Of a stretch of DNA of 34,275 nt, positions 8,394 to 15,078 are shown piece after piece. Source of the DNA: Halobacteriales archaeon SW_7_65_23 (GTDB taxonomy: Archaea > Halobacteriota > Halobacteria > Halobacteriales > Haloarculaceae); NCBI GenBank assembly GCA_003022725.1, contig PXSQ01000113.1:1-34275 (forward strand), given 5' to 3'. Made by a program: the position numbers and the translations under genes. The notes below the pieces were generated by a model. It was not told where the DNA came from and did not search any database. It saw only the letters and a program-made list of their open reading frames with translations. Within the stretch, counting starts at the first letter, position 1; each line of letters starts with the position of its first letter.

Positions 8394-9361
8394 CTACACG
8401 ATCTCCTCGTCGGCGACGGTATCCACGCCGAGGACGAGCAGCGTGATCGAGCCGAGCACGATCGGTGTCCAGAAGACGAGCCCGCGACTCAGCACGACCG
8501 CGGTGATCGTCGGCGCGGAGGCGACACCCGCGATCGTCACGAGCATGAGTACCTGGGTGCCCTCGACGCCGCCGCTGCCGCCGGGCAGTGGCAGCCCCGA
8601 GGCGAGCAGCGACACCTGGACGGTGAAGATCGCGAGCGCGACCGAGATATCGATGCCGACGGCGTCGAGCGTGAGCCACAGGAGAGTCCCCTGCGCAATG
8701 AACGCGGATGTCGCCAGCGCGCTCGCGATCACGATCGTCCGCCGGTCGGCGGCGAGTTCGCCGAACGACGACGTGAAGTTGGCGAGGCGTTCCTCCAGCT
8801 CCTCCTCTTCGAGGCTCGGGAGCAGCGGGAGCCGCGCTGCGGCGCGGTTCACGGCACCGACGAGGCGCCCGAGCAGCCGGCGCATGGCGTCGGGGTAGCG
8901 GTAGATGGCGATCGCGCCCCCCACAATCACGACGACGAACAGGCTGAAGGCGCCAAAGAGCGGCCGGAGGGCGTCCGGCACGGACTGCTCGAACAGCAGG
9001 ATGTACAGCCCGCCGAAGAAAAACACCAGGATCGCGGGAACGAAGCTGACTGCGTCCTTCGCCGAGAGCACGGCCAGACACTCCTCGTAGTGGCTCTCCG
9101 AGCGCTGGGAGAGGATCGCCGCGCCGATCGGTGCGCCGCCGGCCTGGCCGAACGGCGTGAGGTTGTGCGCGAGGCTGACGCTCGTGTTGAGAAAGATGGA
9201 CTCGATCAGTCCCAGCCCGCGCTCAGGATCAGCGCCAGTTCCGTCGCCGAGATCTGCGAGAGCCGATCGACGAAGTCCCCGATGCCGGCCAGCGTCACGA
9301 AGGCGCCGAAGACGAGCACCCACAACAGCACGCCCATCGCGATCTGCTTCTTTTCTAGCAT
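8394..9361 (-). pseudogene. LPG-synthase-TM/AglD-like membrane protein, broken by a 1-nt frameshift
   Basis: The gene reads in two frames. From ATG 9361 (MLEKKQIAMGVLLWVLVFGA) the protein runs 51 codons to ATELALILSAGWD and a TGA at 9206-9208. The next frame continues as LGLIESIFLNTSVSLAHNLT and on to the stop at 8394. Adding one G in the run around 9214-9220 restores LILSAGLGLIES and a continuous 322-residue protein. The restored protein has about eight membrane segments and the family loop AHNLTPFGQAGGAPIGA. Such proteins act as lysylphosphatidylglycerol-synthase membrane domains or lipid-sugar flippase-like partners of glycosyltransferases. The break is a recent mutation, a sequencing error or, least likely, a programmed slip. 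The rest of the frame shows no decay. Confidence 0.82.
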
Positions 9362-9522
9362 GTCTGAGCCTCGTTGCTCATTGCAGCCCTTTTGCGAGCA
9401 GCCCGTTTAGCTTCTGCGATGCGTCTCCGGACGTGTAACGGCAGCAGTGGTCATACTGGTGGCTGTACGTCCGTGAACACTCGAACTGAGAATCCAGGCG
9501 GAACGGGTCTGTCTCCGCAGAG

Positions 9523-9745
9523 AGACAGCCAGACGTGATTCAGGTACGCCATGCCGTCCCAACTCCCGTTGGTCGGGCCATGACACAGCCGATGGACTGT
9601 CCTGGCACTGGACTGATACGGTCGTGCGTGATTATTTTCAGCACTGGGGCCCAATATCGTTGGTTTCACGGGCTGAAACGCACAACACGCGATTCCATAG
9701 CGGTAAACAGTCACGCACGACCGTATGAGTCACGTCTGGCTGTCT
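9523..9745. mobile_element. Middle MITE-like element (layer 2), inserted in layer 1
   Basis: The 16-bp perfect terminal repeats are agacagccagacgtga at 9523-9538 and tcacgtctggctgtct at 9730-9745. With the inner element and its target duplication removed, 111 bp remain. Its interior (ccatgccgtcccaactcc, then gacacagccgatggactgtc) is closely matched in the element at 12612-12760. The target duplication is unclear. GCAGAGA occurs at 9517-9523 and 9747-9753, but the spacing is not that of the other members. Confidence 0.72.
9617..9725. mobile_element. Inner MITE-like element (layer 3), inserted in layer 2
   Basis: This 109-bp element has 15-bp perfect terminal repeats tacggtcgtgcgtga (9617-9631) and tcacgcacgaccgta (9711-9725). 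TGA flanks it on both sides (9614-9616 and 9726-9728). The related copy near 12690-12720 reads straight through this point (cactgtccgg-agtcacgtctgg), so an uninterrupted version of the target exists in the same window. It encodes nothing. Confidence 0.83.
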
Positions 9746-9855
9746 AGCAGAGACTGGTGAACAAAAGAATTACAGCCACCAGTCTCACGCTCGCTGCGGC
9801 GGCGCGTTGGCCTGGACCGACACCGTTAGGTGGCAGACAGCCGAGCGTTCGGCCG

Positions 9856-12589: not shown

Positions 12590-12611
12590 GGCGGCGGAGC
12601 TGTGCCGGTCA

Positions 12612-12760
12612 TACGGTCGTTCGTGATTCACGTAAGCAATGCCGTCCCAACTCCTGTTGTTCGGGGCATGACACAGCCGATGGACTGTCCCAGCACTGTC
12701 CGGAGTCACGTCTGGCTGTATATGACGAGGCAGTCCCGAAAATAGTCACGAACGTCCGTA
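12612..12760. mobile_element. MITE-like element (149 bp) ending at a stop codon
   Basis: The termini are tacggtcgttcgtga at 12612-12626 and tcacgaacgtccgta at 12746-12760, matching at 14 of 15 positions. TCA flanks both sides (12609-12611 and 12761-12763), and the right-hand TCA is the stop codon of the minus-strand GT87-like gene. The segment from the left end to 12720 is homologous to layer 2 of the nested element and ends in the same tcacgtctggctgta. The last 40 bp are extra. Confidence 0.75.
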
Positions 12761-14068
12761 TCAGTCGTCCACACCGGGTTCAGCACCGGGTTCGGGGGTC
12801 GGGCTGGCGGCTGCAGCCGCTGGCGCGGGCGTCCGGGCGTAGCTGACACAGCCGGCCAGGATCAGCAGGAACCCGTACAGCGGGATCGACGCCCACCGGA
12901 GCACGGCCCGGACCGCGTCGGCGAGCGCGTCGGCGATCCCCGGCGACAGCGGGAGCGCCTCCAGGATCGTCGCGACGTGGTGGGGGTACAGCGGAACGTT
13001 GACCAGCACCATGCCCGCGACGAACAGCAGCTTCGTCCGGCGATCCTCGACCAGGTACAGCAGCGGGACCAGCGGGAAGTACAGGTAGACGACGTAGTTG
13101 AGCGTCGAGGGGATGATTGTGATCAGCATCGCGACCATTGTCGCGAAAAACGCCACGATGCGGTCGAGTTCAGAGTCGGCCTCCCGATAGACCAGATAGA
13201 CGACGGGTGCGACCAGCGCCGTCGTGAGCAGAAAGAGCTGGTTGCCCGACAGCGCGAGCACCTGTGAGAACGGCCGGCGGAGCGTGATCCACTGCAACGT
13301 CGGGTCCAGCCCACCCCGGAACGCGCCCTCGCGGCTGCGCTCGTGGAGGATGAACTCGACGAAGTCGACGTGGGCGTCGATCCCGAAGATGGCGACGCCG
13401 AGCAGCGTGAAGCCGACGCCGACGACGACCGCGGCGGCGATCGCCCTGTACGCGCGCCGGTACAGCAGGTAGACGCCGAGAAACGCGGGGAAGAGCTTGA
13501 ACAGCGCGGCCCCGCCCCACAGCGCCCCGCCGCGGGCCCCCCGGCCGCGCTCGATCGCCAGCAGCCCCACCGCGAGCACGAGCAGGATCGCCGGGTCGAC
13601 GTTCCCGCGGTACACTCCGAGGACGGTGTGGCCGGAGAACAGGCAAAAGGCCATGATCAGCACGCGGTCGACGCGGTCAAGCGTCATGCCATAGTCGTCG
13701 AGCAACTGCAGGCAGAGCCGCCCGATGGCGAAGAAAACCCCAAAGAGGAGCAGCATGTTCAGCACGTAGGGGATTTGCCACTCCGGGAACAGCGCGAACG
13801 GGACGAACAGCGGCGCGGTCACGGGCGTGTACACGTAGGCTTTCTCGGTGAGAAAGGAGATGTCCGTGATCGCCCAGCCGACAAACGGCTCGCCCTCCAG
13901 GATCGCCTTGCCAGTGAAGTAGTAGGCGTGAAAGTCGAGTTCGGGGGCGCTCGCGAAGTCGTTGACGGCGAGGACGACGCCGAGGACGCCGGTCACCAGC
14001 CCGAACGCCAGGACGCCGCGTTCGAGCGACCGGTCGGTGCCGTCGGCAGCGTCCCCGAACAGTGCCAT
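12761..14068 (-). CDS. GT87-like (DUF2029) polytopic membrane glycosyltransferase
   Basis: This 435-residue protein has about nine or ten hydrophobic segments. It probably transfers a sugar from a polyprenyl-phosphate donor on the outer face of the membrane. The first extracytoplasmic loop LDFHAYYFTGKAILEGEPF and then VYTPVTAPLFVPFAL match the DUF2029 pattern (D-F-x-x-Y-x-x-x-x-A and Y-x-P-x-x-P-x-x). The C-terminus is an Ala/Pro/acidic tail. Its TGA stop is the target duplication of the adjoining inverted-repeat element, so the insertion preserved the coding end. It lies at the end of the surface-glycan block. Confidence 0.82.
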   Translation of the reverse strand: MALFGDAADGTDRSLERGVLAFGLVTGVLGVVLAVNDFASAPELDFHAYYFTGKAILEGEPFVGWAITDISFLTEKAYVYTPVTAPLFVPFALFPEWQIPYVLNMLLLFGVFFAIGRLCLQLLDDYGMTLDRVDRVLIMAFCLFSGHTVLGVYRGNVDPAILLVLAVGLLAIERGRGARGGALWGGAALFKLFPAFLGVYLLYRRAYRAIAAAVVVGVGFTLLGVAIFGIDAHVDFVEFILHERSREGAFRGGLDPTLQWITLRRPFSQVLALSGNQLFLLTTALVAPVVYLVYREADSELDRIVAFFATMVAMLITIIPSTLNYVVYLYFPLVPLLYLVEDRRTKLLFVAGMVLVNVPLYPHHVATILEALPLSPGIADALADAVRAVLRWASIPLYGFLLILAGCVSYARTPAPAAAAASPTPEPGAEPGVDD

Positions 14069-14884: not shown

Positions 14885-14963
14885 AGAAAGCCCTCGGCGC
14901 GCTCGCGGCCCACGCTGAGCAGGATATCTTCGCTCCCTGCGGTCGCTCAGATAGAGCCTGCTC
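14885..14963 (+). repeat. Palindromic intergenic repeat, copy 3, truncated
   Basis: This copy starts agaaagccctcgg like the repeat at 10837 and follows it through cgctgagc-ggata and ctgcggtcgctcag to gcctgctc. It stops where the inverted-repeat element at 14965 begins. The missing half is not found on the far side of that element. Confidence 0.65.
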
Positions 14964-14964
14964 A

Positions 14965-15072
14965 TACTGTCGGACGTAATTTCGTGGAGTCACGCGTCAC
15001 GTTCAGCCGTTCAACCGTGCGAATACAGCCAGGAAAGTGTCATGATGTGACACAGAGTTACGTCCGACAGTA
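14965..15072. mobile_element. MITE-like element (108 bp)
   Basis: The 15-bp perfect terminal repeats are tactgtcggacgtaa at 14965-14979 and ttacgtccgacagta at 15058-15072. TCA flanks both sides (14962-14964 and 15073-15075). The interior includes a smaller palindrome (gtgtcatgatgtgacac) and is unlike the interiors of the other copies. It cuts into the palindromic repeat on its left and abuts the end of the MscS-like gene on its right. It encodes no protein. Confidence 0.83.
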
Positions 15073-15078
15073 TCACTA

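Follow-up and report, generated by a model that had tools for sequence, protein, structure and literature searches.

The closest published relatives of the elements described here are the SMR-A repeats of Haloquadratum walsbyi (HqIRS42, HqIRS43, and HqIRS55), which are approximately 110 bp long and whose mobilisation has been called enigmatic (PMC3119063). As described in the sections of that paper used here, SMR-A repeats resemble our elements in their length, in having prominent inverted terminal repeats, in falling into several dissimilar families, and in leaving no room for a transposase; they also often lie inside other mobile elements and reach up to 54 copies per genome. Based on the same sections, they differ as follows. 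According to that paper, SMR-A repeats do not duplicate their target, whereas the elements studied here are flanked by clear TNA or TA duplications. Their ends are described as unrelated to known transposons, whereas the ends of one of our families match the IS630 family (no match was found for two others). Finally, SMR-A repeats are described as targeting near-terminal palindromes of PATEs and IS605-type elements; the consensus target found here is CTSAG, without extended palindromy.

Miniature inverted-repeat transposable elements (MITEs) of the IS630-Tc1-mariner group provide a second comparison. In the portions of the literature used here, TA is given as the classical duplication of this group, with TAA and TAAA in Fot and Fot-like pogo elements (PMC7386202) and TATA in most Sailor elements (PMC8533490); the string “TNA” has no occurrence in the main texts of these two papers. 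Our elements share with such MITEs a short, gene-less structure with inverted repeats, one family (layer 3) has IS630-type ends, and another (layer 2) makes the classical TA duplication; the difference is that layers 1 and 3 and a fourth family, L4, duplicate TNA. Exact-phrase matches in the literature contain “MITE inserted into” in two plant papers and “nested MITEs” in one tool paper. Among the matches listed for open-access literature, we found neither a prokaryotic composite MITE that multiplied as a unit nor an IS630 element with a TNA duplication, and the portion of a review of prokaryotic MITEs consulted (PMC10969869) has no word starting with “nested.” The MITEs described below are ordinary in kind; what is unusual is a composite MITE that multiplied as a unit, an internal target that was used again, and an IS630-type clade that duplicates TNA.

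The window, that is, the whole stretch of 34,275 nucleotides analyzed here, is contig C108 of a 2.63-Mb assembly that is 79% complete. Comparisons were made with relatives in the same family, which includes Haloarcula. Two of these, G006 and G007, are other species of the genus of the source genome, and G027 belongs to a different genus. Completeness is 60 to 88% for four of the five genomes comprising the source genome, G006, G007, G027, and G078, and 99% for G078.

A preliminary description of the window had reported three inverted repeats nested inside one another, and these are indeed present (Table 1). The outermost, layer 1 (9454–9784), has TCA on both sides as reported, and its 14-bp ends pair at only 13 of 14 positions in the window copy, the right end reading GACTGG (reverse strand) versus TACTGG in sibling copies. 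Layer 2 has perfect 16-bp ends (9523–9538 and 9730–9745), as described, with the limits of the element proper drawn slightly differently by the siblings (Table 1), and layer 3 has the perfect 15-bp ends and flanking TGA attributed to it. After removal of the inserts, layers 1 and 3 measure the reported 108 and 109 bp; layer 2 measures 109 bp instead of 111 bp, because the earlier value counted in the 2-bp duplication. The layers are thus three MITE families with distinct ends and nearly equal lengths, but their portrayal as related subfamilies is doubtful, because layer 2 duplicates TA and layers 1 and 3 duplicate TNA. The target of layer 3 reads GGA in the printed sibling composites and TGA twice in the window, which is consistent with a change from GGA to TGA that would have preceded the layer-3 insertion.

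Table 1. Features of the nested block at 9451–9787 of the window
Feature	Coordinates	Strand	Basis
TCA, left target duplication of the composite	9451–9453		Sequence, element listing
Layer 1 (108-bp MITE), left portion as far as the layer-2 target	9454–9521	+	Sibling comparison
Layer-2 TA duplication, left copy, here GA	9522–9523		Sibling comparison
Layer 2 (109-bp MITE), split by layer 3	9524–9744	+	Inverted repeats, siblings
Layer-3 left target duplication TGA; GGA in sibling composites	9614–9616		Sibling comparison
Layer 3 (109-bp MITE, IS630-type ends)	9617–9725	+	Inverted repeats, end comparison
TGA, right target duplication of layer 3	9726–9728		Sequence
TA, right target duplication of layer 2	9745–9746		Element listing
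Layer 1, right portion; final base unlike siblings	9747–9784	+	Sibling comparison
TCA, right target duplication of the composite	9785–9787		Sequence

Each layer represents a multicopy family. Allowing at most one mismatch, the end motifs of layers 1, 2, and 3 occur 311, 162, and 80 times in the source genome, compared with 3, 0, and 0 occurrences of the reversed patterns. The fourth family in this genome, L4, defined by the end motif TACTGTCGGACGTAA, has 180 ends at the same stringency (reversed-pattern control, 0). The four families together account for 733 ends, and their elements are mostly 108 to 109 bp long. Since these counts far exceed the reversed-pattern controls, the nested ends are not a product of chance. 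From loci fetched from the source genome, 145 de-duplicated two-ended elements were listed (46 of layer 1, 43 of layer 2, 26 of layer 3, and 30 of L4); the loci had been picked via similarity or an end motif, and the set is therefore a nonrandom sample. Lengths in this set range from 52 to 331 bp, the commonest being 108 bp for layer 1 (15/46) and L4 (27/30) and 109 bp for layer 2 (34/43) and layer 3 (21/26). Identical TNA duplications flank 40 of 46 layer-1, 23 of 26 layer-3, and 23 of 30 L4 elements, the remaining 6, 3, and 7 having mismatched ones. TA is present on both sides of 39 of the 43 layer-2 elements, many of which derive from one ancestral insertion. Thus, the families combine terminal inverted repeats, short length, target duplication, and multiple copies with the lack of an internal transposase gene, as expected of MITEs. 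Of the 146 genomes of the family, 30 contain the sequence TNATACTGGTGGCTGTA.

Several copies deviate from the standard form. Three very short elements with layer-1 ends and matching TNA duplications (52 bp at L054 218–269, 59 bp at L035 1037–1095, and 65 bp at L055 185–249) suggest that little besides the ends is required for movement. At L056 232–398, a 59-bp layer-1 element directly adjoins an L4 element, with TCA on the outer sides only, as if the pair had moved jointly or one duplication were missing. The window itself contains a complete, TCA-flanked 108-bp L4 element (14962–15075), and on other contigs L4 copies also lie inside layer 1. The window further contains a 149-bp chimera with layer-3-type ends, a layer-2 body, and TCA on both sides (12609–12763), which looks like a layer 2 inside a layer 3 that then lost its left part.

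Layers 1 and 2 recur together without layer 3 at many places in the source genome, as seen in a first block search that scored 40 of its 354 candidates. The junction is constant: layer 2 occupies one fixed TA of layer 1, in the context CCGCAGA|TA|GCAG. The layer-1 alignment contains 24 composite rows from the source genome, the composite is also found in G006 and G007, and 10 of the 13 composites of 218 to 220 bp are flanked by TNA duplications of their own. In G027, layer 1 was found only in solo form among the 12 places scored of 59 candidates, with 11 places continuous across the layer-2 site and one having a 42-base gap; on sequence comparison, this solo form shows the putative state before insertion.

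These observations bear on how the block in the window was assembled. Removal of layer 3 and one TGA leaves exactly 219 bp. This remainder is identical to the composite at locus L003 at 210 of 219 positions, the other 12 composites of similar size giving 174 to 206, and it carries a layer-1 variant, GTCCGTGAACACTC, that the alignment shows for the window copy, L002, L003, and L220 (which is the same place as L031), or 4 of its 30 composite rows, and in none of its 25 solo rows. Based on the length, the match to L003, and the shared variant, the window copy most likely landed as a composite. Two events at this site, not three, provide the simplest account, because the 219-bp composite is found elsewhere as a unit bearing duplications of its own. 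The order of arrival proposed earlier (1, then 2, then 3) thus holds for the history of the element, as indicated by G027, but not as separate arrivals of layers 1 and 2 at this locus. The alternative, in which layer 1 alone, then layer 2, and then layer 3 inserted independently at the site, draws on the fact that layer 2 hit the same TA of layer 1 more than once elsewhere, so that a fresh hit here would be possible. We consider it very improbable, given the length, the L003 match, and the distribution of the variant, and given that both the junction and the orientation of the window layer 2 are those of the main composite branch.

The repeated use of this TA was apparent from a tree of 39 layer-2 copies of 105 to 110 bp, a set for which the window copy is too long. 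All 20 copies in the window orientation fall in one branch (95/92), which also contains two inverted copies and the partial composite L050, labeled solo by the script. L198, an inverted copy inside layer 1, groups with two solo layer-2 copies (98/98), and four more inverted copies form their own branch (93/94, slightly below the star threshold of the tool); the placement of L209 lacks resolution. Barring gene conversion in place, at least two and probably three lineages of layer 2 would thus have inserted into this one TA of layer 1. As to context, 24 of the 43 layer-2 copies lie in layer 1 in one orientation, 8 lie there inverted, and 11 lie elsewhere. The preliminary description had suggested a strongly permissive site or a preference for existing copies; the TA of layer 1 was indeed used again, but at places other than the window locus, and nesting calls for no general preference. 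Among the 40 loci selected through L4 and layer-3 ends, four (L209, L213, L214, and L222) have an element in or against another copy and two (L223 and L233) have one abutting another copy. If approximately 365 elements of approximately 110 bp lay in non-coding DNA, with a non-coding share of roughly 15%, they would make up about 10% of it. Since this rough estimate for random insertion into non-coding DNA is similar to the observed rate, the rate of nesting is explicable by chance. The targets of the TNA families, 85 in number and counted on both strands, have the consensus CTSAG, with a frequency of 0.56 each for the C before and the G after and of 0.90 for C or G in the middle. Palindromic targets were also considered but were not supported, no extended palindrome emerging around the 85 targets.

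The block lies between an LPG_synthase_TM-like gene on the left and an APH phosphotransferase-like gene on the right (Pfam). G006 and G007 have the same neighboring genes and no element at the site. The empty site is inexact in that both genomes also lack approximately 32 bp around the insertion and a single TCA is not visible there; in G007, further sequence to the left is absent as well. The approximately 32 bp correspond to 9436–9450 and 9788–9803 of the window and hold a GCAGC...GCTGC inverted repeat; the insertion does not account for their absence. At 9222–9223, the LPG_synthase_TM-like gene lacks approximately 64 bp found in G006 and G007, and its Pfam match covers only profile positions 66 to 302 of 302; judged from these alignments, the gene may be frameshifted.

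The nearly equal lengths and the palindromes of the elements could also stem from selection for a hairpin function at the RNA or DNA level, with mobility being incidental. Among ten layer-3-ended elements of other species, fetched by similarity, nine are 109 bp and one is 107 bp long, and pairing is kept along the length in diverged copies, whose identity to the window copy drops to 73/109. When lengths near 109 bp only are counted, inner palindrome positions pair in 0.50 of cells, versus 0.21 to 0.35 when slid by 1 to 4 positions, and the interior folds moderately better than shuffles (z = −2.25). In Haloarcula and relatives, moreover, layer-1 ends bound elements of 70 to 79 bp (70 copies, of which 53 are 78 bp) with TNA duplications in 64 of 70 and a central hairpin with paired changes. 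Against such a function, shuffled sequences fold as well as the interiors of layers 1 and 2 and L4, the internal-deletion derivatives of 52 to 65 bp retain their TNA duplications, and Rfam gave only two weak matches, both below the gathering score. A selected hairpin is accordingly a very improbable explanation. Least probable of all is that the full 331 bp form a single mobile or functional unit: TCA duplications do flank the entire block, and the recurrence elsewhere named earlier as a refuting observation was half found in that a 219-bp share of it is repeated at other places, but no second copy of the complete block was matched among the 40 scored of 354 candidates (so that one may have gone unseen), the siblings are without layer 3, and layer 3 occurs solo elsewhere.

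A search for full-length elements combining a transposase with any of the three ends, as proposed in the preliminary description, was positive for layer 3 only. In the source genome, PF01609 (DDE_Tnp_1) gave 3 partial matches only, versus 21 places in 8 relatives. PF13358 (DDE_3) gave none at 1e-5 in the source genome, G006, G007, G027, or G078; its 8 places are spread over 4 of the 9 genomes searched. Scanning for ends at the PF01609 and PF13358 loci (at least 13 of 16 bases, 700–2400 bp) revealed no TAC-ended pair with a TNA duplication. Pairs of layer-1 ends 0.8 to 1.05 kb apart (L047 and L048) were discarded, as no transposase-like frame was recognised. Eighteen single layer-1 ends were followed in other genera: for 13, a second end defines an element of 70 to 79 bp, for L106 one of 107 bp, and for four there is no second end within 3 mismatches.

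A long-span scan for TNA duplications with TAC ends, which detects TNA types only, yielded 13 candidates, compared with 1 in reversed controls. Frames were inspected for nine of the 13 (L032, L058, L257, and the window 12609 pair lie outside these nine); two hold an IS630-type gene, and no transposase was recognised by eye in the other seven. The two elements, L088 in G034 (1039 bp, TCA duplication) and L078 in G036 (1113 bp, TGA duplication), carry TACGGTCGTGCG/TACAGTCGTGCG ends. The 316-residue frame of L088 matches DDE_3 (PF13358, 1.2e-30) and, in NCBIfam, the IS630 model NF033545 (9.6e-48), each score exceeding its cut-off. Over 26 bases, the ends of the IS630 elements match those of layer 3 at 18 to 22 positions, L4 at 13 to 17, layer 2 at 9 to 13, and layer 1 at 9 to 12 (the right end of layer 1 being taken from L033, whose end bases are mutated), while none of 572 background TNATAC sites exceeds 19 of 26, versus 22 for the best layer-3 end. 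Over the first 15 bases, layer 1 matches at 6 to 7, layer 2 at 8 to 9, and L4 at 11 positions. Hence, a mobiliser is supported for layer 3 only, because the ends of layers 1 and 2 and L4 match IS630 ends poorly, and for layers 1 and 2 none of the PF01609, PF13358, and TNA/TAC searches revealed an autonomous partner. Judged from ends and duplications, the IS630-family elements in relatives are likely the mobiliser of layer 3.

Relatives of the transposase were found by tblastn in 186 plasmid records, the closest being from Natronococcus, Natrarchaeobaculum, Natribaculum, Halococcus, Halorubrum, Halovenus, and Natrinema; the ends of these plasmid elements start with TAG, not TAC. Among 11 IS630-type elements inspected, with end motifs chosen by eye, six have an identical TNA duplication, four do not, and for one no left end was found; the duplication seen in these 6 of 11 is thus the 3-bp TNA and not the TA that is classical for the IS630-Tc1-mariner group. 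Three IS630-type elements are annotated as two overlapping genes, and the protein of L078 is divided between different frames; the split frames may represent a frameshift design or decay. The transposase found no relative in viral_contigs, phages gave no match, and solved structures none. The window block gave one weak 29-base match to plasmids. The Halomicrobium plasmid pLC1Hm-01 carries 5 elements of 78 bp, with no transposase among the features listed in its incomplete table.

Taken together, we favor, with a probability of roughly 0.85, a history in which layers 1 and 2 form a composite MITE that later took in one guest, layer 3. This history is read from the comparison of copies and not from observed transposition. 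A 109-bp, TA-duplicating layer 2 would have entered a 108-bp, TNA-duplicating layer 1 at the fixed TA, after which the 219-bp composite would have spread as a unit via the layer-1 ends, gaining fresh TNA duplications. It is found in three congeneric species, whether through inheritance or transfer. In the source lineage, one copy would have landed between the LPG-synthase-like and APH-kinase-like genes, and a layer-3 MITE would later have inserted at TGA within the layer-2 part. Layer 3, we infer, owed its mobility to an IS630-family transposase acting in trans and belonging to a haloarchaeal clade with TNA in place of TA duplications; layer 1 and L4 may use relatives of this enzyme, and layer 2 a TA-duplicating one. 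Such a history would require no general preference for nesting, the internal TA of layer 1 having been used more than once by layer 2.

A broader reading is tentative, and we regard it as rather unlikely: the TNA-duplicating IS630-type clade of haloarchaea would mobilise in trans many unrelated short palindromic elements of 78 or approximately 109 bp, SMR-A included, and would tolerate guests between the ends, so that nested elements become longer mobile units. For haloarchaeal genomes, the IS630-type enzyme with its unusual TNA duplications, which has plasmid-borne relatives in Halorubrum, Halovenus, Natribaculum, and other genera, is a candidate for moving the approximately 110-bp repeats. 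In one archaeal lineage, the steps leading from a MITE inside a MITE to a new mobile unit are visible as a solo host, a multicopy fusion, and a later guest.
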